DNA from: Rhodothermales bacterium
Lineage (GTDB): Bacteria > Bacteroidota > Rhodothermia > Rhodothermales > UBA10348
DNA length: 64,000 nucleotides
Assembly (NCBI GenBank): GCA_017643395.1
Contig: JAEPNP010000001.1
Coordinates: 124,001 to 188,000 of the forward strand
Direction: 5' to 3'
Below the pieces are notes generated by a model. That model did not search any database. It was not told where the DNA came from and worked only from the letters and a program-made list of their open reading frames with translations. This document shows, one piece after another, positions 4,704 through 23,127 of the stretch (its first letter is position 1; every line of letters begins with the position of its first letter). The translations under genes were made by a program, and so were the position numbers.

Positions 4704-7700
4704 ATGCGCTTCCTCCCTGCCCTCCTGCTCGCATTGTTCCTGGTCCTGCCGACGTCCGCGCAGGACGATCCGCTCGACGGGCTCGGACTCAATGCCCTGT
4801 CGATGCGCAACGTTGGCCCGGCGTTCACCTCCGGCCGCATCGCCGATATCGCGGTACACCCGGAGCACATCGGCACGTGGTACGTGGCCGTCGGCTCGGG
4901 AGGCGTCTGGAAGACGGAGAACTGGGGTACCACCTGGACCTCCGTGTTTGACGGACAGGGCTCCTATTCCATCGGCTGTTTGACCCTGGACCCCAACAAC
5001 CCGGACCGCATCTGGGTTGGAACGGGAGAGAATGTGGGTGGACGCCACGTAGCCTACGGGGACGGCATCTACCTCTCGAACGACGGCGGACGCACCTGGA
5101 CCAACAAGGGTCTTCCGGACTCGGAGCACCTCTCCAAGATCATCGTGCACCCGGATGACCCGAATACTGTCTGGGTGGCCTCCCAGGGTCCGCTATGGGC
5201 GCCTGGTGGCGAGCGCGGCGTGTACAAGACCACCGACGGAGGAGACACCTGGACGCGCACCCTCGGTGACGACGAATGGGTCGGCGCTACTGATCTCCTG
5301 ATTGATCCAAGGGACCCCGATGTGCTATACGCCGCCACCTGGCAGCGCCATCGCAACGTGGCCTCCTACATGGGAGGCGGCCCCGGCACCGGCGTGCACA
5401 AGTCCACGGACGGCGGCGAGACCTGGACCGAACTGACCCGCGGCCTTCCCGGTGGCAACATGGGCAAGATTGGCCTCGCCATGTCCTACCACGACCCGGA
5501 CCAGCTTTGGGCGGCCATCGAACTGGACCACACCACCGGCGGCGTCTTCATGACCACCGACCGGGGTGCATCGTGGCGCAAGATGTCGGATGCGGTCGCC
5601 GGAGCGACCGGTCCCCACTACTACCAGGAGATCTTCGCGAGCCCGCACCACGAAGGCCGCCTGTTTCTGATGGACGCCTCCCTGCAGATGTCGGAGGACT
5701 ACGGCGCCACGTTTACGCGCGTGAACCGGCGAAACAAGCACGGAGACAACCACGCCATCGCCTTTCTGCCCGGCCTGCCGGACTACTACCTGATGGGTAC
5801 GGACGGTGGCCTGTTCGAGACATTCGATGATGCCGCCACGTGGAAGTTCATCGGCAATCTTCCCGTCACCCAGTACTACAAGGTGGCAGTTGATGACTCG
5901 GAGCCATTCTATCTGATCTACGGCGGCACGCAGGACAACGGTTCACACGGCGGCCCGTCCGCCACGGACAATCGGCACGGCATTCGGAATGCGGACTGGT
6001 TCAAGACACTCGGCGCAGACGGTCACCAAAGTGCCACCGAGCCGGGTAACCCGAACATCACCTACGCGGAAAGCCAGCAGGGCGGCCTGGCCCGGATCGA
6101 TCGCCTGACCGGAGAGCAGGTCTCCATACAACCACAGCCCGGCCCGGGTGAGCCCTACGAACGGTACAACTGGGACGCCCCGATTGTCGTCTCTCCACAC
6201 GACCCGGCCACCCTCTATTTCGCTTCCTACCGGGTCTGGAAGTCCGAGAACCGCGGCGACAGCTGGACCGCAATTTCCGGGGACCTGACCCGCAATCAGG
6301 AGCGGTTTGAGCTGCCCATCATGGGCCGCGTTCAAAGCTGGGATAATGCCTGGGATCTGAACGCGATGTCGGTCTACAACACCATTTCATCCATCGACGT
6401 GTCCCGCGTGCAGCCCGGTTTGGTGTATGCAGGCACGGACGATGGACTCTTCTCGGTCTCGGAGGACGACGGGGACACCTGGCGCACCATGGAGGTCGGC
6501 GACATTCGCGGCGTGCCGCAGGGCGCCTTCGTCAACCACGTTTACGCCGACCTGCACGATGCAGACGTCGTCTACATGGCGCTGGACAACCACAAGTTCG
6601 GTGATCTGGAGCCGTATCTCGTGAAGAGCACCGACCGCGGGCAGACGTGGAGTTCGCTTGCCGCAGATTTGCCGGAGCGCACGCTGATCTGGCGCATCGT
6701 CCAGGACCACGAGGACCCGAATCTCATCTTCCTGGGCACCGAATTCGGGGTTCAGGTCACGACGAACGGCGGCACCACCTGGCACGATCTGCCGACTGGC
6801 GGTGCCACGATTTCTTTCCGGGATGTCGTCATCCAGCGCCGCGAGAATGACCTTGTGGGCGCGTCGTTCGGGCGCGGGTTCTTTGTGCTGGACGATTACA
6901 CGCCGCTGCGCAACCTGGACAGTGACGCGCTGGCCGCCGACGGCCACATCTTCCCTGTCAAGACCGCCCGCCAGTTCATCCCGCGGGACGTGGAAGGTGG
7001 CGCACAGGGTCATCAGCAGTACGCAGCACCCAACCCGACCTTCGGCGCCGTCTTCACCTACCACCTGAACGAAGGCTGGGAGTCCATGGAACGGGCCCGT
7101 CAGAAACGGGAACGGGAAGCGGGCGATGCGGATCTGCCGTTCCCCGGCTGGGATGCCCTCGAGGCCGAGCGCAACGAGGTGCCCGCCAGCGTGGAATTGG
7201 TGGTGCGCAACATGGACGGAGATGTGGTGAGCCGGGTCGAAGGGCGCACCGGAAAAGGACTCCACCGCACGGCGTGGAATCTGCGGTTTGATTCGAACGC
7301 GCCTGTCGTTCCGGGTGAGCGCAGCGGCGGAGGTGGCTTCATGGCGCCGCCGGGTACCTACACGGTAACGCTGACGCGAACTGTAAACGGCGAGATGACC
7401 GACATGTCTGGACCAGTTTCCTTCGATGTCGTGCCGCTGCGTGACGGTGCGCTGGATGGCGCATCGCCCGAAGAAATCCTGGCATTCATGCAGGAAGTAG
7501 AGGCCATGCAGGCCGAGGTCACGACGTTCACCACCGCCTTCCGCGACGCGCAGGAGATGGTTGAAGCCATGCAGACTGCGCACTCCCGCGCCGACCGGCC
7601 CAGTGCCGACCTGGCCGAGCGCCTGCACAACGCGCGCGCCACGCTTCTGGCCATAGACCAACAGGTTCGTGGCTATCGCAGCAAGAGCCAGGCTGGTGAG

Positions 7701-7913
7701 CGCAACGCGCCGTCTCCGCAGTCACGCATGTTTGCAGGCTTCCGTGGCCTGAGCACGTCATACGGCCCGACGCCGCTGCATCGTGCGACGATGGAAGCCG
7801 GCAAGGTGGAGTTGGCTGCTGCTCAGGAGGCCCTGCACGCCTTCCTGACGGAAGTTCTTCCAAGCCTCGAATCCGGACTCGCAACCACGGGAGCACCGCC
7901 CATTCAGAAATAG
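4704..7913 (+). CDS. Secreted BNR/VPS10-like repeat protein ('glycosyl hydrolase' family)
   Basis: 1069 residues with a Sec signal peptide (cut after PTSAQ near residue 20). Many Asp-box repeats of the form S/T-x-D-x-G-x-T-W occur through residues 50-720, for example SNDGGRTWT, TTDGGDTWT, STDGGETWTE, TTDRGASWRK, SENRGDSWTA, SEDDGDTWRT and STDRGQTWSS, giving one or two beta-propellers as in sialidase/sortilin-type proteins. The C-terminal 250 residues hold a beta-sandwich-like part (VELVVRNMDGDVV...LHRTAWNLRFD) and a helical stretch. Proteins of this type are usually annotated as glycosyl hydrolases, but no catalytic residues can be assigned from sequence; export or surface location is likely. 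Confidence 0.88.
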   Translation: MRFLPALLLALFLVLPTSAQDDPLDGLGLNALSMRNVGPAFTSGRIADIAVHPEHIGTWYVAVGSGGVWKTENWGTTWTSVFDGQGSYSIGCLTLDPNNPDRIWVGTGENVGGRHVAYGDGIYLSNDGGRTWTNKGLPDSEHLSKIIVHPDDPNTVWVASQGPLWAPGGERGVYKTTDGGDTWTRTLGDDEWVGATDLLIDPRDPDVLYAATWQRHRNVASYMGGGPGTGVHKSTDGGETWTELTRGLPGGNMGKIGLAMSYHDPDQLWAAIELDHTTGGVFMTTDRGASWRKMSDAVAGATGPHYYQEIFASPHHEGRLFLMDASLQMSEDYGATFTRVNRRNKHGDNHAIAFLPGLPDYYLMGTDGGLFETFDDAATWKFIGNLPVTQYYKVAVDDSEPFYLIYGGTQDNGSHGGPSATDNRHGIRNADWFKTLGADGHQSATEPGNPNITYAESQQGGLARIDRLTGEQVSIQPQPGPGEPYERYNWDAPIVVSPHDPATLYFASYRVWKSENRGDSWTAISGDLTRNQERFELPIMGRVQSWDNAWDLNAMSVYNTISSIDVSRVQPGLVYAGTDDGLFSVSEDDGDTWRTMEVGDIRGVPQGAFVNHVYADLHDADVVYMALDNHKFGDLEPYLVKSTDRGQTWSSLAADLPERTLIWRIVQDHEDPNLIFLGTEFGVQVTTNGGTTWHDLPTGGATISFRDVVIQRRENDLVGASFGRGFFVLDDYTPLRNLDSDALAADGHIFPVKTARQFIPRDVEGGAQGHQQYAAPNPTFGAVFTYHLNEGWESMERARQKREREAGDADLPFPGWDALEAERNEVPASVELVVRNMDGDVVSRVEGRTGKGLHRTAWNLRFDSNAPVVPGERSGGGGFMAPPGTYTVTLTRTVNGEMTDMSGPVSFDVVPLRDGALDGASPEEILAFMQEVEAMQAEVTTFTTAFRDAQEMVEAMQTAHSRADRPSADLAERLHNARATLLAIDQQVRGYRSKSQAGERNAPSPQSRMFAGFRGLSTSYGPTPLHRATMEAGKVELAAAQEALHAFLTEVLPSLESGLATTGAPPIQK

Positions 7914-7926
7914 AACTCGCTGTCGC

Positions 7927-8403
7927 TTAGCCTGCGGCCTCCCACTCCTCTTCAGTAGCCAGTTCTTTCTGGTGCTCCATGAGCATCAGCCAGCGTCCGT
8001 CCTTCTTGACAAGCAGGGCGGTGAAATGCACCGTCGCGCCCTGCTGCCCTCCGTCGGCATCGGTCGCGATGTAGCGGAAAATCCCGGTTTCGTGCGCGGT
8101 TGAGGCATCGCTCAGCCGGCGGGTAAAGCGAAACTCGACGTTGGCGGTGGTGCGCCCCTCGGCGGTATCGACAAAGCCCGGCTTCCAACCTTCGAGCGCC
8201 TGAGAAATCGGGTAGCTCGCGCTTCCGGCTGTGGACACGAGCACTGCGTCCGGGTGATACAGGGCCGCATAGCCATCAAAGTCCCCCTCCGCCACGGTTC
8301 GCGAGACCTCGGTCCAATAGGAATCGAGCTCGGGATCGACAGGGATTCCATCGACCGGATGCCCGGCAAAGGCCAGCAGGATGGACAGGAGAAAAGCAAT
8401 CAT
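7927..8403 (-). CDS. Secreted NTF2-like (SnoaL/DUF4440-type) protein
   Basis: 158 residues beginning with a hydrophobic export signal (MIAFLLSILLAFAGHP), then an NTF2-like alpha+beta cone: VSRTVAEGDFDGYAALYHPDAVLVS, a glycine-rich middle, and VHFTALLVKKDGRWLMLMEHQ at the C-terminus, the usual strand order of DUF4440/SnoaL-like folds. These folds bind small ligands or are catalytic; nothing here fixes a substrate. Convergent with the BNR gene 13 bp away. Confidence 0.75.
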   Translation of the reverse strand: MIAFLLSILLAFAGHPVDGIPVDPELDSYWTEVSRTVAEGDFDGYAALYHPDAVLVSTAGSASYPISQALEGWKPGFVDTAEGRTTANVEFRFTRRLSDASTAHETGIFRYIATDADGGQQGATVHFTALLVKKDGRWLMLMEHQKELATEEEWEAAG

Positions 8404-8589
8404 GGCATGCCTGGTTGGAAACTGGCCTACAAGGTACGTCAGTCCCTTCCTACATCATTCTTGGGACCTCACTTACCCTGACTTTGGATGCTGTCCGGCT
8501 GCGCCGGCAGGGCATCTTCAGTTAATTGACGTCAGTCGTCGACAGTTCACGGCGGCTGACATAGATATCACCATTAAGATTGATTCACT

Positions 8590-9333
8590 ATGCGACGCTT
8601 TGGGTCCATGTTTGCGCTGTTGGCGCTGCTCTTGACGGGTTGCGACTCGTCGAGCGCGGAGGAAGACGGCGAAGCTTTCATTACGGTTTCATTCCAGTCT
8701 CCGGACTATTCCGCGGGGAAAACGGGCGGTATGCCTATCACCGGGTCAAACGGTGTTCTCAACATCGACCACATGGCATTTGTGGTCAGCGAGTTCGAGC
8801 TCCGCGCCGACGGAGACGGCTGCTTCTTTGGAAGGCTTGACGAGGACTGCCACGAGTTTGACGTGGACCCGCGGCTGGTAACGTTCAATATGGATGGCAA
8901 CGCCGTTCCGATTGCGTCTGAAAAGGTTCCGGCAGGCACCTACCGCGCCATCGAATTCGAGATTGAGGATCTGGATCTGGATGATGGCGGCCTCTCGGCC
9001 TCCTTGCGCAATAATGTCCGTGCCCAGTATCCGGATTGGCCGGACGAGGCTTCCCTTCTGGTGACCGGCACCTTTACATCGACGGGTGGTGTCCAGCGCC
9101 CGTTCCGTTCCTACTTCGAGGCGGACGTGGAGGTGGAGCGCGTGTTTGCCACACCTGTGAATGTCGCCGAGTCTGAAGCACTCTATATCCGCGTGGATCC
9201 TGGACCCTGGTTCAGGGAAGACAACCAAACTGTCGTCGACCTGTCCCTCTATGACTATACCACCACGGGCGAGGTCGCTGACCTCGACGTGGAGATTGAG
9301 GACGGATTGAGCGAGGTCGAAATCGACGACTAG
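8590..9333 (+). CDS. Hypothetical lipoprotein (DUF4382-like beta protein)
   Basis: 247 residues with a lipobox LLLTGC (Cys17) followed by DSSSAEED. The mature part alternates strands (MAFVVSEFELRADG, GTYRAIEFEIEDLDLDDG, FRSYFEADVEVERVF) and is very acidic near the C-terminus. The pattern resembles DUF4382-type lipoproteins, but I cannot assign a function. Followed by a strong intrinsic terminator. Confidence 0.75.
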   Translation: MRRFGSMFALLALLLTGCDSSSAEEDGEAFITVSFQSPDYSAGKTGGMPITGSNGVLNIDHMAFVVSEFELRADGDGCFFGRLDEDCHEFDVDPRLVTFNMDGNAVPIASEKVPAGTYRAIEFEIEDLDLDDGGLSASLRNNVRAQYPDWPDEASLLVTGTFTSTGGVQRPFRSYFEADVEVERVFATPVNVAESEALYIRVDPGPWFREDNQTVVDLSLYDYTTTGEVADLDVEIEDGLSEVEIDD

Positions 9334-14057: not shown

Positions 14058-16919
14058 CTAACGCACGACCACGAATCGCTGCCGGCCCAGGCGCTCTCCG
14101 GTCTTGACGGTCACGAAGTACGAACCGGACGGCAGGCCTTCCGTGTCCACTTCCAGGTTCTGACGGCCGCCGGCCAGCCACTGAGAGCCTGACCACACCC
14201 GCCGCCCCAGCATATCGTGCACCTGCACAAGCACGGGACCGGGGATCGGATTGCTCAGGGTCATGGCCACGTGTCCTTGCGCGGGATTCGGATACGGTGC
14301 ATCCAGCGTCAGGGCGTTCGGGAATTCCTCCCCGCCCTCTGTATCGAGCACAAAGGGAATACCGAAGTAGTCCATCACCGCGGTCAACAGCGCATCGCGC
14401 GAGCTGCCGCCGTTGGCCTGGAGATCTGCCATCGTGTACGACATCGCCACGGCGCGACCGCCAGCGGAGGTCTCATTCTGCACGGCCACCACGCCGTAGC
14501 CGTCCTCGACGAAGACGGCACGCCCTGAGCCTCCGACGCCGTACTGGTCAATGGAGCCGTTTGCCGTCTGCCGGGACGATACGAACTGCAACCCCTCCGC
14601 AAGACTGCCCGCCTGTCCCGTCATGCTGGTCACCGGGCGCCGATTGCCGTTGCCGGCCGCGTTCATCCCGAAAGCCTGCAGCAGCTCGGCATTGGATGCC
14701 TGGTTGGACCCGAAGACCTGCGCGCCCTCCACGTATACCTTGCCTCCACCCAATACATAGTCCCGGATGGCACGGGCGGGGATGTCGTCCAGCGGCGTGG
14801 GCAGGTTTTGCGGATCGAATGGTCCGAACGACAGGAAGACCGCATCGTAGCCATCAAACGAGGGATGGATGGCAGCGGTGCGCGAATAGACCGCCGGCAC
14901 GCCCGCCTCAAGCATCGACTCGTAGATGTACCGACCCGAACGACCCTGCGGGTTGCCGAAGCCTTCCCAGACGTACACGCCACTGTTCACCGAGACGTAG
15001 TCGGTGAGCACCGTAGTCTCCGTTCTGGTGCCATTTGATGCCGTCAACGTGACACTGTAGAGACCCGGCTGTTCATAGGTATGAGAGGCCAGCGAGCTGG
15101 TAGCGTCCACCATACCGTCCGACTCGAAGTCCCACGCCCAGGAATTGGCGCTGCCTTCCCCAAAGGTGGACAGGTCGAAAAACGTCACGTTGAGTGGACC
15201 CGGGCCTGAGCGTCCGGTAGCCGCCGCGGCGGCGCGGAACAGGAATCCGCGTTCAACAAACGACTCGACCATGCGCGCGGCATTCTCGGCGCCGAACAGC
15301 ACGGAATCTGCCTTCAGAACCGCCCGTGCGGCGTCCTCTGTGTTGCTGTTGCTGCCGGTCATGGCGAGTCCCTCCAGGAAGAGCAAGTCTGCCTTGTCCC
15401 GCCCGATCTCGTCCAGTATGTCGATCATGGAGCTCGCCCAGATCTGACCGTCCGTATGTATGGCTCCGGTCAGGTCAAACGGATACCGGCCGAAGTAGTC
15501 TGTGCGGCGCCCGTTGAAGAACGGCCGGCCACCCCATCGCCCGAAATTGTCCCGGTTGGGGTCATTTTCGGACCACGTGGACTTGCTTCGGGTGTAGGAG
15601 GCGGCCCAGTAGTCCGCCGATCCCTCGCTGAGGCCGGCGCCCTGGGAGATTCCGCGATCCGTGATCCAGTCATGGATGGCATGGCCCAGTTCGTGCAGTA
15701 CGACCTCTGGATCCTCGGCCATGTCCACACCCCCTTCGCCAAAACGGAGTTGCCCCGTGAACAGGTACTGGGCGTTGACGGCGCCCTCCAATCCGTGGGG
15801 ATCGGCCTCCACGCCGCCGCTGTACTGAAGGGGGGCGAGGGCGATGCCGAGCTCCTCATTGATGTACCGCATCGAATGCTCCAGGTGGTAATACACCGTC
15901 GCGGCTTCGAAGGCCGGCTCCGACCGGGTGAAATCAAAGTCGGGGGTGGACTGCTCGAACAGGCCCAGGAAAGGGAGGTCAAAATCGACGATTTCAGCCA
16001 GCGGGCCGGAGAGCAGAAACGACGATCCCGTATCCGTGATGTCGCGAAGCGTTACCTGCGTGCGCGCGGCGGTGAGCTCTTCCGAGTCGGCGTCGCCGTT
16101 GTCGCTGTGGCCGGATGAGGATCCGTAGGCGACACCCGCAGTGGTCATGGGGTCGGGGTCGAAGACCATTCCGGTTCCGTCCACACGTCGACGGACGGAA
16201 GTGCTCGGAGCATCAGCGCGGGGGAAAGCTCCCCGAGCCGAGGTCAACATCGGTGCCTGTGCCGGCGTCACGTGCGCAGTCGGCTCTGCGCGGAAGACCA
16301 GGCCGGTGCCGGCGTCGACGAGCACGTCCCAGGCGTCGGCTGCCGTCACCATCTGCACCTGGCGGGCCATGCGTACGGTACCGTTGCGGGCGAACACCAC
16401 GGGCCGAGATTCCACATGTGTGGGCGCGCCCTGGAACGCCACATGTTCCATCGCCGCCTGGTCCAGCGACTGTGGCGCGCCCTTGGACGCCCCTGCCTCA
16501 AGCGACAGCCCGGGTTCAAACCCGCTGGAGACAAACAGGACCTGTCCGTCGCCCCCGAGAGTGACGGAGACCGTGGCCTTGTACACGTCCACGCCTTCCA
16601 GCACCTGTTGGAACCGCACGTGGCGGCCAACGCGAGTCTCCCGAACCGCGTACGGCCGCAGTTCGGCTTCGAGGCTTCGGATACCGAGCTCGTGGCCCCG
16701 GTCGCGAAGGAAGTCAGTCGCCTGTTCCAGAGCGCTGGCCGCATCGGAGCGATAGTCCACGTGATACAGTGCGACCGGGGTTCCAGTCCGCACATTCACC
16801 CGCGCTGAACCCTCGATTCGGGTCGGATCAGGATGGTCGGTGACAAGCACCCCGCGCGGGGTCTGGGCGGCTGCAGGCAAAACAACTATAGCCAACAGCA
16901 GGACAATCAGAGAACGCAT
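14058..16919 (-). CDS. Secreted fungalysin/M36-like metallopeptidase, PKD domain, T9SS sorting
   Basis: 953 residues from ATG 16919 (a TTG six bases upstream is less likely). Order: signal peptide (VVLPAAAQ); FTP-type propeptide (about 20-215); zinc peptidase with HELGHAIHDW (about 409-418) and third ligand Glu in GLSEGSADYW (about 432); PKD domain (about 575-655: SWAWDFESDG, HTYEQPGLYSVTLTASNG); an unassigned alpha/beta region (about 655-860) resembling a ThuA/GATase-like fold; and a type-A T9SS domain (YPNPAQGHVAMTL, VHDMLGRRVWSG, GSYFVTVKTGERLGRQRFVV). Predicted extracellular protein degradation. Convergent with mgsA. Confidence 0.9.
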   Translation of the reverse strand: MRSLIVLLLAIVVLPAAAQTPRGVLVTDHPDPTRIEGSARVNVRTGTPVALYHVDYRSDAASALEQATDFLRDRGHELGIRSLEAELRPYAVRETRVGRHVRFQQVLEGVDVYKATVSVTLGGDGQVLFVSSGFEPGLSLEAGASKGAPQSLDQAAMEHVAFQGAPTHVESRPVVFARNGTVRMARQVQMVTAADAWDVLVDAGTGLVFRAEPTAHVTPAQAPMLTSARGAFPRADAPSTSVRRRVDGTGMVFDPDPMTTAGVAYGSSSGHSDNGDADSEELTAARTQVTLRDITDTGSSFLLSGPLAEIVDFDLPFLGLFEQSTPDFDFTRSEPAFEAATVYYHLEHSMRYINEELGIALAPLQYSGGVEADPHGLEGAVNAQYLFTGQLRFGEGGVDMAEDPEVVLHELGHAIHDWITDRGISQGAGLSEGSADYWAASYTRSKSTWSENDPNRDNFGRWGGRPFFNGRRTDYFGRYPFDLTGAIHTDGQIWASSMIDILDEIGRDKADLLFLEGLAMTGSNSNTEDAARAVLKADSVLFGAENAARMVESFVERGFLFRAAAAATGRSGPGPLNVTFFDLSTFGEGSANSWAWDFESDGMVDATSSLASHTYEQPGLYSVTLTASNGTRTETTVLTDYVSVNSGVYVWEGFGNPQGRSGRYIYESMLEAGVPAVYSRTAAIHPSFDGYDAVFLSFGPFDPQNLPTPLDDIPARAIRDYVLGGGKVYVEGAQVFGSNQASNAELLQAFGMNAAGNGNRRPVTSMTGQAGSLAEGLQFVSSRQTANGSIDQYGVGGSGRAVFVEDGYGVVAVQNETSAGGRAVAMSYTMADLQANGGSSRDALLTAVMDYFGIPFVLDTEGGEEFPNALTLDAPYPNPAQGHVAMTLSNPIPGPVLVQVHDMLGRRVWSGSQWLAGGRQNLEVDTEGLPSGSYFVTVKTGERLGRQRFVVVR

Positions 16920-16976
16920 AAACAAAGCGATTGGGAGGGTCCGGCAAGATAACCGTCTCCCCCGCTCGCGTGGGCG

Positions 16977-19256
16977 CTAGTACCGCCGCTGAAAGATTTC
17001 GTCCAGGGTCATGCCGCGCAGCTCCTCGACAAACGTGTGGAGGTGCCGAATCATGATTTCCCAGATGGCCTCGCCCTGCTTTACGGACGACTTGGTCGGA
17101 TCACCCATGACGCCGCTTTCCGAGATGCGATGCGTGAAGGCGTACCATGGTACGCCCTCGTTGCCGGTGAAGTCCAGGTACTTGCTGGAGAAACGCGGGA
17201 TGTCCGGCGCGGCTTTGCTCATATCCACGAGTTCGGGCCGCACGGCCAGCGTGGTGCTGGTCTCCACCTCGCCGGCATGCACGTCGTTGGGCGTCACCAC
17301 GTCGCGGTAGATCTCCTCGTCGCTCGATTCACCGGTGTCAACCGCCACGAAGATGCGAGAGTCCCGGTTGATCATTTGCGCGGCGTGGTTCAGTGTCGGC
17401 GCATTGCCGCCATGACCATTGACAATCAGAAGCTTCGTGATGCCGTTCCGGGCCGCTGCCATGCCGATATCGTAAACGACCCGCGCGAGCGTCTCATTCG
17501 ATACCGAAAGCGTTCCCGGAAACTCGTCATGGTGGTAGGAGACGCCGTAGGGAATGGTCGGCAGCACCAGGGGCCGCGGCTCGTCGCAGCGCGCGGCGAC
17601 CGCCCGGCAGAGGTACTCGGCGTCGAACGTGTCCACATCCAGCGGCAGGTGCGGGCCGTGCTGCTCAATGGCTCCGACCGGGAGCAGCGCCACGTCCACC
17701 TGGGACAGGCGCTCTTTGGCTTCGGGCCAGGACATCTCGGCCCACAAATAGGAAGTCTTGGACATGGCAGGCGGCAAACGTTTGCCAAAGGGATAGGGAA
17801 GAGCCAGGCGCTCGGGAGACAGCGGATCGATGGGCACCCATCGGCGACCGGAGCGCGCGACGGCCCCTCCGGTGTGCTGCTGCATGATGCGCAGGAACGG
17901 TGCACGGATGTCTTCCGGAAGCGTATCCGGTGGGCATCGTTCGGTGTCGAAACGCAACTGCTCCACCTCGGGGTGCTCCTTGCCAAGGCCTGCCTCAACC
18001 GCACCCTTCGCCGCCAGCTTCCACAGCAGGTGAGCGGCATCCGGACCCCGCTGGTGCACGCCCTGGACCTTCAGAGCTCCCAGGCACCGCTCAATCTGAT
18101 CCTCCGTGTACCCGCATCGCTTCGGATCGTGGCCGCCAGCCACAAGGATCCCGACCACCCTGCGACACTTCTCGCACTTCCCGCAGGGTCGCATGCGCTC
18201 GCCGTCCTTATGGCTGGCATGGCACGATACCTGGTGCGCCTGCAGGGCGGGGTAACGGGCCGCCAGCGTGTCCTGGACCGTCAGTTCGGACAGGGCTCGT
18301 AGCAGCGAGAACTGGGCGATGGGCAGCTGCTTGCGATGGAAGTAGCGGCTGAGGGCCTGGTCAAAGAAGCGACTCTGGTCATACAGGCCGTCGTAGTGCG
18401 GAATCCCGTGCGTGCGCACCCGGCGCGTCGTGTCGTTTTCGCATCCGATCACGATGCGGCCCAGACCGCGCTTGCGCACGAGCGGCATCATGGCGAACAG
18501 GAAAACCGCCACAGTCCACAGGCGGACCGGGTAGATGTCGGCCCGCACGTCCGCAAAATCCTTTCGGATGAACGGCAACTGCCGCAGCATGAACCCGAAG
18601 ACGCGATCCGCCGAAATCCAGACGCGCGCGGTGTGCGGGACGTCCGTCTCGAAATGCCTGAACGCATTGACCGCCGTGAACCAGTGCCGGCCGGACTCAT
18701 TGCCGAAGAGGGGGTGGACCTCGTAGCCCATCTCGGTCAGAAGGCCGTAGGAGAGCAGGCTCTCCTTGCCGCCGCTGGAGAGTACGCAGACTTTGCGGGG
18801 GTCCGGTTCGGCTCCCGGCCACGGCGCTTGGTCGCGCACGTTCGGAAAATCGATGGCTGCCTGCGTGTAGCGCTCCAGACGCGCCGGCTCAATCGCGGCC
18901 GCATCGCCCGTGAGGAACGGGTTGTCGACGAGGATCTTGTTGACCCAGATCTCTCTGCTGGTGTTTTCCATCGCCTCCGTAAGGAAGCGCACATCGACCC
19001 GATCAAACCGGCCGTGGAAGGTGATGCGTTTGCAGAAGAGGCCGTAGTTGAGAGCCACCTGCGCCAGAATCAAGCTGGCCAGGTTCTCCGAGTCCGCGCC
19101 GTCGAATACCGGCTCGCCGTACGAGAATCCGAGTTCGGTTTCGGCGACCTCTGCGCCCCGCGTTACGCGGTAGGTGCAACGGATGCCATCCGGCTTGATT
19201 CGTGGCGCCAGAACTTCCAGGTGGTCAATGACGAGGAGCGCGGAAACGTCAGCCAT
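16977..19256 (-). CDS. QueC-like PP-loop ATPase fused to a creatininase-family amidohydrolase
   Basis: 759 residues from ATG 19256, overlapping the upstream gene by 8 bp. N-terminal half: a novel about 150-residue lead domain, then VCVLSSGGKESLLSYGLL, a PP-loop (SGGKES, 161-166) of ATP-pyrophosphatases, and a zinc-type cysteine set C345, C358, C361, C364 (PCGKCEKCRR) as in QueC. C-terminal half from about 498: creatininase fold with LPVGAIEQHGPHLPLDVDTF (Glu531, His533, Asp540/542), VNGHGGNAP (His615) and DVHAGEVETS (His660, Glu663), the metal ligands of the family. No stop separates the halves. Expected chemistry: adenylation of a carbonyl or carboxylate plus metal-dependent amide hydrolysis. 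The substrate is unknown. Confidence 0.88.
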   Translation of the reverse strand: MADVSALLVIDHLEVLAPRIKPDGIRCTYRVTRGAEVAETELGFSYGEPVFDGADSENLASLILAQVALNYGLFCKRITFHGRFDRVDVRFLTEAMENTSREIWVNKILVDNPFLTGDAAAIEPARLERYTQAAIDFPNVRDQAPWPGAEPDPRKVCVLSSGGKESLLSYGLLTEMGYEVHPLFGNESGRHWFTAVNAFRHFETDVPHTARVWISADRVFGFMLRQLPFIRKDFADVRADIYPVRLWTVAVFLFAMMPLVRKRGLGRIVIGCENDTTRRVRTHGIPHYDGLYDQSRFFDQALSRYFHRKQLPIAQFSLLRALSELTVQDTLAARYPALQAHQVSCHASHKDGERMRPCGKCEKCRRVVGILVAGGHDPKRCGYTEDQIERCLGALKVQGVHQRGPDAAHLLWKLAAKGAVEAGLGKEHPEVEQLRFDTERCPPDTLPEDIRAPFLRIMQQHTGGAVARSGRRWVPIDPLSPERLALPYPFGKRLPPAMSKTSYLWAEMSWPEAKERLSQVDVALLPVGAIEQHGPHLPLDVDTFDAEYLCRAVAARCDEPRPLVLPTIPYGVSYHHDEFPGTLSVSNETLARVVYDIGMAAARNGITKLLIVNGHGGNAPTLNHAAQMINRDSRIFVAVDTGESSDEEIYRDVVTPNDVHAGEVETSTTLAVRPELVDMSKAAPDIPRFSSKYLDFTGNEGVPWYAFTHRISESGVMGDPTKSSVKQGEAIWEIMIRHLHTFVEELRGMTLDEIFQRRY

Positions 19257-20322
19257 TGCGCGCCGCCAGGACCACGTCTGCAAGACCCGCTGCACCATGC
19301 TCCAGCACATCGAACGCCGGAAGCCCGCATTCTTCTGAGACGGCCTCACACGCTGCCTGGATGTCCTCCGGGGCAATGCCCTCATGGTTCACGGTGACTG
19401 CAATCACCGGTTTGCCGGAGAGGCGCTGCAGCACGTCGATCTGCTGGGTGAGCGGGTGCATCTTGTACCCCGGGAAGCCGTCATACTCGGTCCGCGTGGG
19501 CGCGTGCTGCATGATCACGGCCTGGGGCCGCCCGGCCGCCAGCAACTCGAAGCCGCCGGGATAGGCGGGATTCATCAGACTGCCCTGGCCCTCAAGGACA
19601 ATGAACTCCGGTCGGGATTCGCTCCACGCAGACCACACGGCATGCTCGATTTCCCCCGCCACGAAGTCGTTGATGAGCGAATCGAGCACGAACGAGTGCT
19701 TGGCCCCCTGCATCCAGGCCGTCTGACCGGTGCCGATCATCTGCACGCCATGGCCGCGCGCCTCCAGCTCCTGCACCAGTTTCCATGCTGTGGTGCGTTT
19801 CCCAACCGCCGAATCGGTTCCGAGCACTGCAATGACACAGGAGTCCACGTGCTCGATCTTGCCGGAGAAGAAGTGCAGCTCGGAGCGCGGCGGCGGCTTG
19901 CGAATATCCCTGATCCGTGCGCCATGCTGCGCAGCCAGGCCGGCCAGCTCGGCGTCGTCGCTGACGAAGTCATGCAGCCCGGAGTCCACGTGCAGGCCGC
20001 GGCTGAGCGCCTCACGGATGGCCCAGCGCATCCCTTCATCGATACGGCCGCCGTCCGGCGCGATGCCGATCACCAGGTGACTGGCCGGAGTGCCCGCTGC
20101 CCTTGCGGTCTGCAGACCCGCCTCCAGGGAGGCCACCAGCGGGATGCCGCTTGGCCGCCGGTCCAGCACCGTTCCGGCGTCCTGACCCGCATGCCGGGAG
20201 TCGATCACAGCCGCCACGTGATACCGCCGGGTAAACCGCACCAGCCCGTGCGCCGTTTTGCCGTTCGGCGTGTTGAAAGCGCCGTCGCAGTACACGACGG
20301 CCGTTCCGTCCAGAGGCTTCAT
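19249..20322 (-). CDS. DUF1611 family P-loop protein (DgcN-like)
   Basis: 357 residues. N-terminal Rossmann-like DUF1611_N part (AAVIDSRHAGQDAG, HLVIGIAPDGGRI), then a P-loop VLGTDSAVGKRTTAWKL (about 167-182) and PEFIVLEGQGSLMNPAYPGG, typical of DUF1611. A studied relative, DgcN, was described as a D-glutamate N-acetyltransferase acting with an N-acetyl-glutamate epimerase; most members are uncharacterised. Its ATG overlaps the stop of the PLP gene by 4 bp and its end overlaps the fusion gene by 8 bp, so the three are translationally coupled. The acyl donor and acceptor here are not known. Confidence 0.88.
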   Translation of the reverse strand: MKPLDGTAVVYCDGAFNTPNGKTAHGLVRFTRRYHVAAVIDSRHAGQDAGTVLDRRPSGIPLVASLEAGLQTARAAGTPASHLVIGIAPDGGRIDEGMRWAIREALSRGLHVDSGLHDFVSDDAELAGLAAQHGARIRDIRKPPPRSELHFFSGKIEHVDSCVIAVLGTDSAVGKRTTAWKLVQELEARGHGVQMIGTGQTAWMQGAKHSFVLDSLINDFVAGEIEHAVWSAWSESRPEFIVLEGQGSLMNPAYPGGFELLAAGRPQAVIMQHAPTRTEYDGFPGYKMHPLTQQIDVLQRLSGKPVIAVTVNHEGIAPEDIQAACEAVSEECGLPAFDVLEHGAAGLADVVLAARNG

Positions 20323-21383
20323 CGTTTTCCGGTTAGTACAGCTACGTAACGGTCACCCGCCAGCGGCTCGGCCGCCTGTCGGGTAAGTAGCGCGTGCAAG
20401 CCCGCAGTTGCAGCAGGCAGGGCTCCGAGAGATTCGCGTTCCAGCAGGGTGCGAGCCAGCTGCTTCATCACGCGGTCCGACGCGTGTTCGCACCAACCGT
20501 CCGTATCGCGAACGGCGTGTAGAGCGTGGTCTCCATCCAGGGAATGCCAGTTGACAAGCGGCTCGTTGGTCTCTGTTTCGCGGATGCTGCCGGGCTCCAG
20601 GTCCTCGCAGGTCTCCAGTCCACGCTTCCAGGCAAGAACGATGGGGTTTTTCCGAAAGCTGGACCCCGCCACCATGCGCGGGATGCGAGACGTCTTGCCT
20701 CGCCGGTACAGACTCACGAACCCCCGGTGCACTCCCGCCAACGTGGTGCCGTTCGACACGGATACGGCCACTACGGCCGGCGCGTCTCGGAGCTCATCGT
20801 AAATCTCGTAGGCAATCTGACCGTATGCCTTGAGCTGCAGGGCGGTGTTGTCCCCGCCCGCGTTGGCGTCGTAGATCTCCTTGTCCGCTGCAAAAGCTCG
20901 GGACACTTCCACCGTGCGCTCATAGTCGCCATTCACGCGGTGTATGCGCGCGCCCAGCTGCTCCATCTCCTGCACGCGCTTGGTGGCGTACGCGGAAGGA
21001 ATGAACACCTCGCAGTTCAAACCGGCCAGCCTGCACGCCATGGAGGTAGCAACCCCGTAGTTGCCACACGTGGCCACCGTCACCGCGTCGAAGCCGCGAC
21101 GAAGTGCATCCTCAGCCTGCGCGAAGGCAATGCGATCCTTTTGCGTTCCGCTCGGGTTGCTGCCTTCAAACTTCAGAAACAGCTGCCGCAAGCCGCATTC
21201 GCGTTCCAGGTGGCGGGCGCGCACCATGTTGGTATCGCCAACCTCCGACTCGGCCGCATCCTCAAAAGCCTCGAGACGCGCGAGCAGACTCAATTCGGGC
21301 GCAATCTGTTCGTGCGATTCGGTCCAGGCCGTGTCGCCGTGGGCGCCGTCCAGAAGGGGATCTATGACTGGTTCAGGGTGCAT
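20319..21383 (-). CDS. Threonine-synthase-like fold-type II PLP enzyme
   Basis: 354 residues. LFLKFEGSNPSGTQKDRIAF gives the PLP lysine (Lys82) in the threonine-synthase context; TVATCGNYGVATSMACRLAG is the substrate/cofactor Asn loop; SVSNGTTLAGVHRGF stands in for the phosphate-binding glycine loop. Related enzymes perform beta/gamma-replacement or elimination on phospho-homoserine, serine or threonine. Short for threonine synthase (over 400), so a specialised homologue (for example a cysteate- or diaminopropionate-type synthase) is equally plausible. First gene of the coupled operon. Confidence 0.85.
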   Translation of the reverse strand: MHPEPVIDPLLDGAHGDTAWTESHEQIAPELSLLARLEAFEDAAESEVGDTNMVRARHLERECGLRQLFLKFEGSNPSGTQKDRIAFAQAEDALRRGFDAVTVATCGNYGVATSMACRLAGLNCEVFIPSAYATKRVQEMEQLGARIHRVNGDYERTVEVSRAFAADKEIYDANAGGDNTALQLKAYGQIAYEIYDELRDAPAVVAVSVSNGTTLAGVHRGFVSLYRRGKTSRIPRMVAGSSFRKNPIVLAWKRGLETCEDLEPGSIRETETNEPLVNWHSLDGDHALHAVRDTDGWCEHASDRVMKQLARTLLERESLGALPAATAGLHALLTRQAAEPLAGDRYVAVLTGKR

Positions 21384-21495
21384 GACGCATGATAGATCAG
21401 GCGCGCGTACCGAAAACGCTCCGCATGACTTTCACAGGTTCCGGGCCGATTTCTGGCGGCCTATCTTTGCCGGCTCCCACCAAGGGATTGAACCC

Positions 21496-23127
21496 ATGCG
21501 CCGACTGCTTCCCCTTGTGCTGCTCTTCACCGCCGCGTGCCAGAACGTAACGGAGTCGCCGGAAATCCCCGAGACCGTGCTCGCGGCGCTGGACAGTGCC
21601 TCCGTGCGCCCGCACATAGAAATCCTTAGTGACGATGCGATGGAGGGTCGGGGTACAGGCCAGCCCGGCGAGGCACGCGCGGTGGCCTACATCGCGGAGC
21701 AGATGGAGGCAGCAGGTCTGGAGCCCGCGGGCGACGACGGGACGTGGTTCCAGGAGGTACCGCTCCTGGGCTCGACACCCGAGCCCCAGGGGCCGCTCGC
21801 CTTCGTGCACGAGTCGGGGAATGAGATACTGCTAGACTTTGTCGACGACTTCATCGTCTCAACTGACCTGGAGGACACGCGTGTTGCCGTCAATGCTCCC
21901 CTGGTCTTCGTGGGATACGGCATTGAAGCACCCGGATACGACTGGAGCAGCTACAAGGATGTCAACGTGACCGACAAGATCATTGTCAGCTTCGTGAACG
22001 ATCCTCCGGCCAACGAGACTGAGCCAAATCTCTTCCAGGCGGACACCCTGACCTACTACGGTCGGTGGACGTACAAGTACGAGGAGGCGCGGCGAAAGGG
22101 AGCACGCGGGGCCATCCTGATCCACACCACACCGACTGCCAGCTACCCGTTCCAGGTGCTTTCCGCAACCGCAGCCGGCGAGCAAATCCAGTTGGCAACC
22201 CCGCCTGAAAACCCGCTCGCGCTCAAGTCCTGGATCACCGAAGAGTCCGCCCGGGCGCTGGCCGAGATGTCCGGCAGCACGCTGGAGGCCTGGTTTGAGG
22301 CCGCCGGAGGGCGGGATTTTCAGCCGATGGAGTTGCCGGTGTCCGCGGCCGTCCAGGTGGACTACGCCGTACGACGATTCTCAGGGCAGAACGTTGTCGG
22401 CAAGATCACCGGTGCCGTGCGTCCCGATGAGAGCGTCGTGTTTTCGGCCCACCATGACCATCTGGGCATTGGAAAACCCGACGCGTCGGGAGATACGATC
22501 TACAACGGGGCCGTCGACAACGCATCCGGCGTCGGCATGCTGCTTTCGCTCGGCAAGGCCATGAGCGCATCGCCCGAACCGCCGGAGCGCTCGCTCGTCT
22601 TCCTGAGCGTGTCCGCGGAAGAATCCGGCCTGCTGGGCGCGGAGTTTTACGCCCGCAACCCGCACCTGCCCCTGGCACTGGCGGCGGGCAACATCAACGT
22701 GGACTCCGGCAACGTCTATGGACGTACCCACGACATCGTCGGCATCGGCGCCGAGAAGAGCGAGATGATGGGCCTCTTCCGCGAGGCCGCGGAGGCCGAG
22801 GGGCTGCGTGTGGAGCCTGACCCCAACCCGAACGCGGGCTCGTTCTTCCGCAGCGACCAGCTGGCGTTCGCTCGCGGGGGCGTGCCGGCAGTTTTTGTGG
22901 TCACCGGGAAGGACTATCAGGGCCGCCCGGAGGGCTGGGGCCTGGAGAATCGCGCTGACTACACGGCGAACCGGTACCACCAGCCCAGCGACGAATTCGA
23001 TCCCTCATGGCCGATGGGCGGTGTGGTGCAGCAGATGCGGGTTGCGGCGCGTGTGGCGTACCGGCTGGGATGGAGCGATCTGGAGTTGCAGTGGAATGAA
23101 GGGGAGGCGTTCGGGGAGGCGCGTTAG
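21496..23127 (+). CDS. Lipoprotein M28-family aminopeptidase with PA domain
   Basis: 543 residues from ATG 21496 (MRRLLPLVLLFTAACQ; lipobox Cys15); the frame stays open upstream but has no homology there. PA-type insert around residues 110-280 (LVFVGYGIEAPGYDW, RRKGARGAILIH). Zinc ligands of the M28 fold: SAHHDHLGIG, AVDNASGVGMLLSL, VSAEESGLLGAEFYARNP, NVDSGN and NRYHQPSDEFDPSW. Removes N-terminal residues from peptides outside the cytoplasm. Its end overlaps the convergent HAAS-protein gene by 4 bp. Confidence 0.93.
   Translation: MRRLLPLVLLFTAACQNVTESPEIPETVLAALDSASVRPHIEILSDDAMEGRGTGQPGEARAVAYIAEQMEAAGLEPAGDDGTWFQEVPLLGSTPEPQGPLAFVHESGNEILLDFVDDFIVSTDLEDTRVAVNAPLVFVGYGIEAPGYDWSSYKDVNVTDKIIVSFVNDPPANETEPNLFQADTLTYYGRWTYKYEEARRKGARGAILIHTTPTASYPFQVLSATAAGEQIQLATPPENPLALKSWITEESARALAEMSGSTLEAWFEAAGGRDFQPMELPVSAAVQVDYAVRRFSGQNVVGKITGAVRPDESVVFSAHHDHLGIGKPDASGDTIYNGAVDNASGVGMLLSLGKAMSASPEPPERSLVFLSVSAEESGLLGAEFYARNPHLPLALAAGNINVDSGNVYGRTHDIVGIGAEKSEMMGLFREAAEAEGLRVEPDPNPNAGSFFRSDQLAFARGGVPAVFVVTGKDYQGRPEGWGLENRADYTANRYHQPSDEFDPSWPMGGVVQQMRVAARVAYRLGWSDLELQWNEGEAFGEAR

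Follow-up and report, generated by a model that had tools for sequence, protein, structure and literature searches.

The window analysed here, a 64,000-nucleotide stretch of a Rhodothermales bacterium genome (contig JAEPNP010000001.1, positions 124,001 to 188,000), carries three overlapping genes, all on the minus strand, which encode a pyridoxal phosphate (PLP) enzyme, a DUF1611 protein and a PP-loop + creatininase fusion. This gene set is a real unit and more than chance, because loci under 13 phylum labels show it again with the same gene order and a single coding strand. A fifth gene, encoding an enolase-superfamily dipeptide epimerase, lies downstream in relatives' loci and is absent beside the window copy. 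We tentatively propose that the operon encodes a stereo-inversion pathway acting on N-acylated amino acids (or dipeptides), a possible reading whose reactions, substrate and direction we infer. So compact a set, carried under so many phylum labels, probably makes or uses one small molecule, yet a gene-by-gene reading would return only 'threonine synthase', 'DUF1611', an unknown, 'creatininase' and 'dipeptide epimerase'. Taken together, the genes connect a MurL-like PP-loop enzyme with two protein families, DUF1611 and the dipeptide epimerases.

Conservation of the gene set across loci

A scan with gene 3 (the PP-loop + creatininase fusion), keeping one genome per species, gave 72 loci (L031-L102), in which presence was counted only where there was enough flank. 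The PLP gene lay upstream in 60/63 assessable loci and DUF1611 upstream in 57/63, and the dipeptide epimerase was found downstream in 54/60. All five parts (PLP enzyme, DUF1611, PP-loop, creatininase and epimerase) were present in 45 of the 54 fully assessable loci; the best matches counted were all on one strand and order was kept. The three-gene set described in the first-pass annotation of this DNA therefore recurs across genomes, and the attempt to refute it through a lack of co-occurrence failed on the PLP and DUF1611 counts. That annotation had missed the epimerase gene, and the PP-loop/creatininase half of its set proved optional in a 148-genome sample of the phylum.

Nine of the 54 loci were incomplete. 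L037 lacked the PLP gene, L056 and L072 lacked both PLP and DUF1611, L043 and L087 lacked DUF1611 and epimerase, and L046, L097, L100 and L101 lacked the epimerase. DUF1611 was also absent at L067, where an orthologue lay elsewhere in the same genome. The PP-loop and creatininase parts shared one frame in 44 of the 70 loci showing both and occupied two frames in 26/70, as judged by a shared stop-to-stop frame, so that frameshift errors would count as split. In L091, DUF1611 and the PP-loop domain were in one frame.

The tree of PP domains (72 domains, from 71 loci and the window; L068 was too short and was omitted from alignment and tree) carries the 13 phylum labels. The only firm grouping of the window domain was with L031, from a Rhodothermales genome; beyond this it fell into a set of mixed labels, apart from the main Bacteroidota cluster, with weak support. 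Across 45 loci, the pairwise distances of the five proteins correlated with r between 0.60 and 0.87, shared ancestry being uncontrolled. Apart from the operon's own genes and frames antisense to them, neighbour clusters occurred in 8/72 loci at most (clustering of all six frames, at least 110 codons; antisense clusters set aside by eye).

Presence pattern in the phylum

A profile test independent of gene 3 covered 148 genomes of the phylum, which are treated as one draw as the same genome handles recur across the profile searches. An orthologue of the PLP enzyme (at least 55% identity) occurred in 10/148 genomes and an orthologue of the DUF1611 protein (at least 59%) in exactly those ten; 13 further genomes held only DUF1611 paralogues (at most 43% identity, at 1e-40). 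The epimerase orthologue (at least 49%) was present in 9/10, the exception being the window genome, and one genome outside the ten had a 39% epimerase match. The PP-loop domain was found in five of the ten (G000, the window genome, and G051, G062, G116 and G130). The ten represent six genera, so they are not ten independent events. Because the epimerase occurs in 9/10 and the PP-loop domain in 5/10, the constant core in this sample is PLP + DUF1611 + epimerase, with PP-loop + creatininase an optional addition.

In one genus that has this core and no PP-loop domain, genes for a GntG-family threonine-aldolase-type enzyme (367 bits, cut-off 230) and a nitrilase-family protein (198.8 bits, below the cut-off of 502.6) come after the operon (L142, 9455-11520). 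Similar frames were seen by eye in L144 and L145, although all three loci belong to the one genus and the profile scan was of L142 alone. These neighbours possibly hint at a beta-hydroxy amino acid.

Layout of the window operon

The operon and the parts of its third gene are as follows.

Gene 1: 20319-21383, minus strand; 354 amino acids; fold-type II PLP enzyme of the PRK06381/NF004996 'threonine synthase' family
Gene 2: 19249-20322, minus strand; 357 amino acids; DUF1611 (DgcN-like) P-loop protein with the motif GTDSAVGKRTT
Gene 3: 16977-19256, minus strand; 759 amino acids; PP-loop + creatininase fusion in one open frame
PP-loop domain: 17787-19256, minus strand; gene 3 residues 1-490; QueC/QatC fold, MurL-like sequence (both predicted)
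PP-loop nucleotide motif LSSGGKES: 18759-18782, minus strand; gene 3 residues 159-166; conserved
Cysteine cluster C345 ... C358-x2-C361-x2-C364: 18165-18224, minus strand; invariant in a 39-member alignment
Creatininase domain: 17031-17741, minus strand; gene 3 residues 506-742, the last third of the protein; Pfam PF02633

Genes 1 and 2 overlap by 4 bp (ATGA, 20319-20322) and genes 2 and 3 by 8 bp (ATGGCTGA, 19249-19256), in agreement with the earlier description of three minus-strand genes. The four tightly coupled enzyme activities predicted there are likewise borne out, as predictions, by Pfam/NCBIfam domain assignments and by these overlaps. The ORF listing gives gene 3 an earlier in-frame start at 19385; the start at 19256 is preferred because in most full-length loci the relatives' matches begin at its residues 1-8.

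The encoded proteins

Gene 1 scored over the cut-off of NCBIfam NF004996 (399.9 bits vs 266), whose family name is annotation only, matched Pfam PALP (1.1e-51) and fell under the cut-off of the threonine synthase model TIGR00260 thrC (77.7 bits, cut-off 167.1). Its K82 (GTQKDR) aligned with the GSFKDR lysine of threonine synthases of solved structure and is, by position, the putative PLP lysine. The concern that the genes might each have an unrelated known role in the lineage was followed up for the PLP gene only: the window genome has a separate thrC on contig C7, over the TIGR00260 cut-off (245.6 bits), and by these scores gene 1 is not the housekeeping threonine synthase.

Gene 2 carries both Pfam domains of its family, DUF1611 (PF07755, 1.4e-61; 207.9 bits, gathering cut-off 25) and DUF1611_N (PF17396, 4.6e-24; 85.0 bits, cut-off 22.6), and matched solved structures PDB 2g0t, 7xrj and 2obn. 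Its profile score indicates that it is related to DgcN, though far below the DgcN cut-off.

Residues 1-490 of the window gene 3 protein had no Pfam match at 0.01. In an alignment of 39 of the 73 PP domains (38 of the 72 loci plus the window, picked for diversity), L159, S161, G162, G163, K164 and S166 were invariant, and we take the C345/C358/C361/C364 cluster to be, by position, the zinc site of QueC-type enzymes. A structure model built from the 39 sequences (mean predicted local distance difference test, pLDDT, 92.1) matched QatC at 1.8e-6 and QueC at 3.8e-5 (TMt 0.64 to 2pg3) in Foldseek. Its top solved folds were QatC (Z 13.9), QueC (Z 13.1) and Cap9 (Z 12.7), at 10-20% identity and with TM-scores of 0.29-0.37 over the model's length, and the top matches in a viral fold library were mostly phage QueC proteins. 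The modelled domain is thus QueC-like at the level of the fold.

Sequence profiles placed the domain elsewhere. The QueC Pfam model was reached by 3/39 PP domains at 0.01 (best 0.0057; the window domain not among them), whereas the MurL profile NF041275 was matched by 34/39 at the same limit (best 4.2e-8), and no other NCBIfam family was matched at 0.01. The 'QueC-like' label of the first-pass annotation therefore stands for the fold and not for the sequence. The MurL profile matched two of 394 genomes in the phylum at 0.001, both matches being members of this PP-loop family, and it matched 0/14 control genomes at 0.001 and 5/14 at a loose limit of 10. This profile is specific and not sensitive, because only two members of the PP-loop family were found in 394 genomes. 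By sequence, the domain is nearer MurL than QueC, and its short profile coverage and a score far below the cut-off suggest a distant relative, not MurL itself. Weak Pfam matches among the 39 domains (DUF6395 in four, DUF7070 in three, UBQLN1 in one, all at ~0.005) were set aside. By eye, no MurD2-type ligase was seen in the gene contexts looked at; no Mur ligase model was run.

Two other ideas about these proteins were rejected. The QatC/Cap9 fold pointed to a defence role, but PADLOC matched none of the proteins scanned (the three of the window and the epimerase of one relative), and plasmid carriage found no match to the PP-loop domain in a plasmid collection at 0.01.

The creatininase domain matched PF02633 at 1.6e-72 (244.2 bits, gathering cut-off 31.3). 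Four of its positions (E531, H533, D542 and H615) aligned with active-site residues of creatininase, and it reached 152.9 bits with TIGR03964, the model of the mycofactocin peptidase MftE; unlike MftE, it stays under the cut-off of 172 and is fused to a PP-loop domain. The Glu of creatininase NGHYEN is replaced by Gly in gene 3 (NGHGGN); we take this Glu and the four aligned residues to be those of the creatininase active site. The domain appears close to MftE, its nearest model and a named peptidase.

The epimerase and its absence beside the window copy

Of the 59 loci in which the fifth protein was matched, 54 (aligned length at least 320) were used to assess its conservation. K160, K162, D190, E216, D241, D318 and D320 were kept in at least 95% of these 54 sequences; we take them to be the Lys pair (Lys-x-Lys), the D/E/D metal ligands and the DxD motif. 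The closest solved structures were the dipeptide epimerases 3rit, 3jva and 1jpm, and the nearest named relatives were L-Ala-D/L-Glu epimerase and DgcA. The operon enolase resembles YkfB-type dipeptide epimerases in its Lys pair, metal-ligand positions and DxD motif, and differs from them in scoring under the NF041118 cut-off (253 against 500) and in having Glu24, in at least 95% of the 54 sequences, where B. subtilis YkfB has Arg24, presumably a residue that matters for substrate preference. Because of this substitution a preference for glutamate is unlikely, and the residue preferred by the operon epimerase is probably not glutamate.

In the window genome the best epimerase match (34% identity) directly adjoins a second DUF1611 gene on contig C4. 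Adjacent second DUF1611-epimerase pairs were also found in 5/8 other genomes (G404, G405, G406, G407 and G408); amongst the same eight, the two genes lie ~17 kb apart in G402, and G403 and G409 show no pair. The recurring pairs indicate more than one instance of a DUF1611 protein partnered with a dipeptide epimerase, in the manner of DgcN/DgcA. The C4 pair is a putative separate DgcN/DgcA-like unit, and the missing epimerase of the window genome is possibly supplied by this distant paralogue.

At the C4 locus itself (L128, G000:C4:219000-235000), the DUF1611 gene is directly coupled to the dipeptide epimerase at 6454-8627 on the minus strand, and a putative membrane transporter, identified by eye, adjoins them.

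A possible stereo-inversion pathway

Under the proposed pathway, the PLP enzyme would make an amino acid, or consume one in the opposite direction. The DUF1611 protein would then add an acyl (acetyl or aminoacyl) group to the amino-acid nitrogen, a step modelled on DgcN, which is named for acylating D-glutamate. The enolase-type epimerase would reversibly invert the alpha carbon of the acylated amino acid and, where present, the MurL-like PP-loop domain would invert it one way, spending ATP via carboxylate adenylation. Finally, the fused creatininase domain would hydrolyse the amide and release the product. Several lines of evidence argue for this reading. For three of the five proteins the nearest named relatives (DgcN; L-Ala-D/L-Glu epimerase and DgcA; MurL) act in the inversion of N-acyl- or peptidyl-glutamate, and the operon is conserved in 45/54 loci under 13 phylum labels with a shared presence pattern. 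The epimerase keeps its Lys pair, three metal-ligand positions and DxD motif, DUF1611-dipeptide epimerase pairs recur at separate loci, and the creatininase domain is close to a named peptidase. The first-pass annotation had suggested a route to an N-acylated or amide-containing small molecule; that broad idea is supported, whilst substrate, product and direction remain conjecture.

A number of observations weigh against the proposal. Gene 2 scored 152.4 bits against the DgcN (NF041892) cut-off of 480 and the operon epimerase 157 bits against the DgcA cut-off of 400. The window PP-loop domain matched MurL at 2e-5 with 23.3 bits, against a cut-off of 700, over only ~75/447 profile positions. 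Because the DUF1611, epimerase and PP-loop proteins score so far under these cut-offs, their function may have shifted. The DxD motif, if it has the role we presume, suggests a free N-terminal amine, which would fit a dipeptide over an N-acetyl amino acid, and a second epimerase would be superfluous were both to work on one and the same centre. The other five of the ten profile genomes have no PP-loop domain and show only distant creatininases elsewhere, and the window genome itself has no operon-type epimerase (no match at 1e-70). Furthermore, L043, L083 and L087 have PLP + PP-loop + creatininase but no adjacent operon-type DUF1611 or epimerase (in L083 DUF1611 is absent and the epimerase was not seen, the downstream flank being just under the flank limit); two of their genomes have distant copies and the third (G403) has no DUF1611 match.

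Creatininase is an enzyme for five-membered cyclic amides, and a more specific, improbable variant would make the fused gene 3 protein a two-step ATP-driven epimerase. Here, the PP-loop domain would adenylate the N-acyl amino acid, an azlactone with a very acidic alpha proton would form, and the creatininase domain would open the ring with one handedness. If true, this would account for the fusion, for the requirement of an N-acyltransferase and for the unexplained one-way chemistry of MurL, and MurL itself would be a PP-loop enzyme. The azlactone idea is our own chemistry, and PMC8142540 makes no mention of azlactone, oxazolone or MurL.

Alternative explanations

QueC/QatC enzymes use ATP on a carboxyl or amide group, and the shared fold raises the possibility that the PP-loop domain is a ligase, which activates a carboxylate and joins an amine to give a dipeptide or amide, with the enolase epimerising and the creatininase trimming or hydrolysing. 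The product would be a dipeptide or amide that contains a D-amino acid and might serve, for instance, as a compatible solute. The DxD motif and the closeness of the epimerase to solved dipeptide epimerases (3rit, 3jva, 1jpm) agree with this, and the names of several cultured carriers point to the sea, presumably their habitat. However, the named family closest in sequence, MurL, is no ligase, and the absence of the PP-loop domain from half of the profile genomes with PLP, DUF1611 and epimerase counts here too; we regard a ligase as rather unlikely. Salvage is a doubtful candidate as well. In that case D-amino-acid peptides or free D-amino acids, from cell-wall fragments or marine organic matter, would be converted to L-amino acids, with the PLP enzyme acting last (deaminating or cleaving). 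There is precedent in DgcN-DgcA, described as a route of D-glutamate use (PMC10845958), and in the L-Ala-D/L-Glu epimerases that serve murein recycling (PMC5808125). Yet no recurrent transporter or peptidase accompanies the set, given that no neighbour cluster exceeds 8/72 loci, and an ATP-spending step would be unusual.

It is very improbable that the MurL-like protein replaces glutamate racemase (MurI) in supplying D-glutamate for peptidoglycan. No genome among 21 (the window genome, itself unmatched, and 20 relatives) had a TIGR00067 glutamate racemase over cut-off, as this explanation would expect, but a PF01177 racemase-family protein, probably a divergent MurI or aspartate racemase, was over cut-off in the window genome and 16/20 relatives, and on this ground MurI replacement was dropped. 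Moreover, the relatives G003, G013, G085 and G135 (also in the 148-genome sample) have no PP-loop domain, PLP orthologue or operon-type epimerase and so manage without a MurL-like protein, and no non-operon neighbour recurs in more than 8/72 loci. That the genes are adjacent for reasons unrelated to a common pathway is strongly disfavoured, almost to the point of rejection. Each gene does belong to what is presumably a large family with many separate roles, but order and strand are kept under 13 phylum labels, the presence pattern is shared, and gene fusions occur (PP-loop + creatininase in 44/70 loci; DUF1611 + PP-loop in L091). Among these possibilities, we retain the stereo-inversion pathway as our tentative proposal.

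The PF01177 racemase-family protein of the window genome lies at G000:C5:64798-65487 (in L129), and 17/21 genomes have one; this lineage possibly relies on a glutamate or aspartate racemase of divergent sequence.

Relation to known systems

Among the closest parallels is the DgcN-DgcA D-glutamate pathway (N-acetyltransferase and N-acetyl-D-Glu racemase by their NCBIfam names), which likewise pairs a DUF1611 protein with an enolase-superfamily epimerase. Unlike in DgcN-DgcA, both operon proteins fall far under the family cut-offs and are coupled to a PLP enzyme and often to PP-loop + creatininase. MurL is the sole NCBIfam family matched by the operon PP-loop domain, which differs from it in being fused to or adjoining a creatininase and in its score (23 bits vs 700). 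MurL is reported to convert peptide-terminal L-Glu to D-Glu one way, with ATP converted to AMP and carboxylate adenylation proposed (PMC8788868), and to be without known conserved domains (PMC5808125, PMC8788868). The matches at L106 and L121 (G000 and G062) suggest that MurL itself may be a PP-loop/QueC-type enzyme, in which case its ATP-to-AMP chemistry would become intelligible and testable. QueC, QatC and Cap9 have the fold in common with the operon domain, whereas sequence and gene context differ.

No description of this gene combination was found in the open-access papers searched (most subscription journals and all bioRxiv preprints were outside the scope), in keeping with the initial view that it is undescribed. 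In a Xanthomonas paper, threonine synthase and dipeptide epimerase appear as separate entries. Each part belongs to a known enzyme family, and what appears undescribed is their combination with a MurL-like PP-loop/creatininase fusion.

Genes flanking the window operon

Downstream of the operon, the position of the epimerase gene in relatives is occupied by a minus-strand gene (14058-16925) for a fungalysin-like metallopeptidase (M36, 20.2 bits vs a Pfam cut-off of 23.3) with a PKD domain and a Por secretion tail. Upstream, a divergent gene (21061-23127, plus strand) has a product that by eye resembles a secreted M28-type peptidase.

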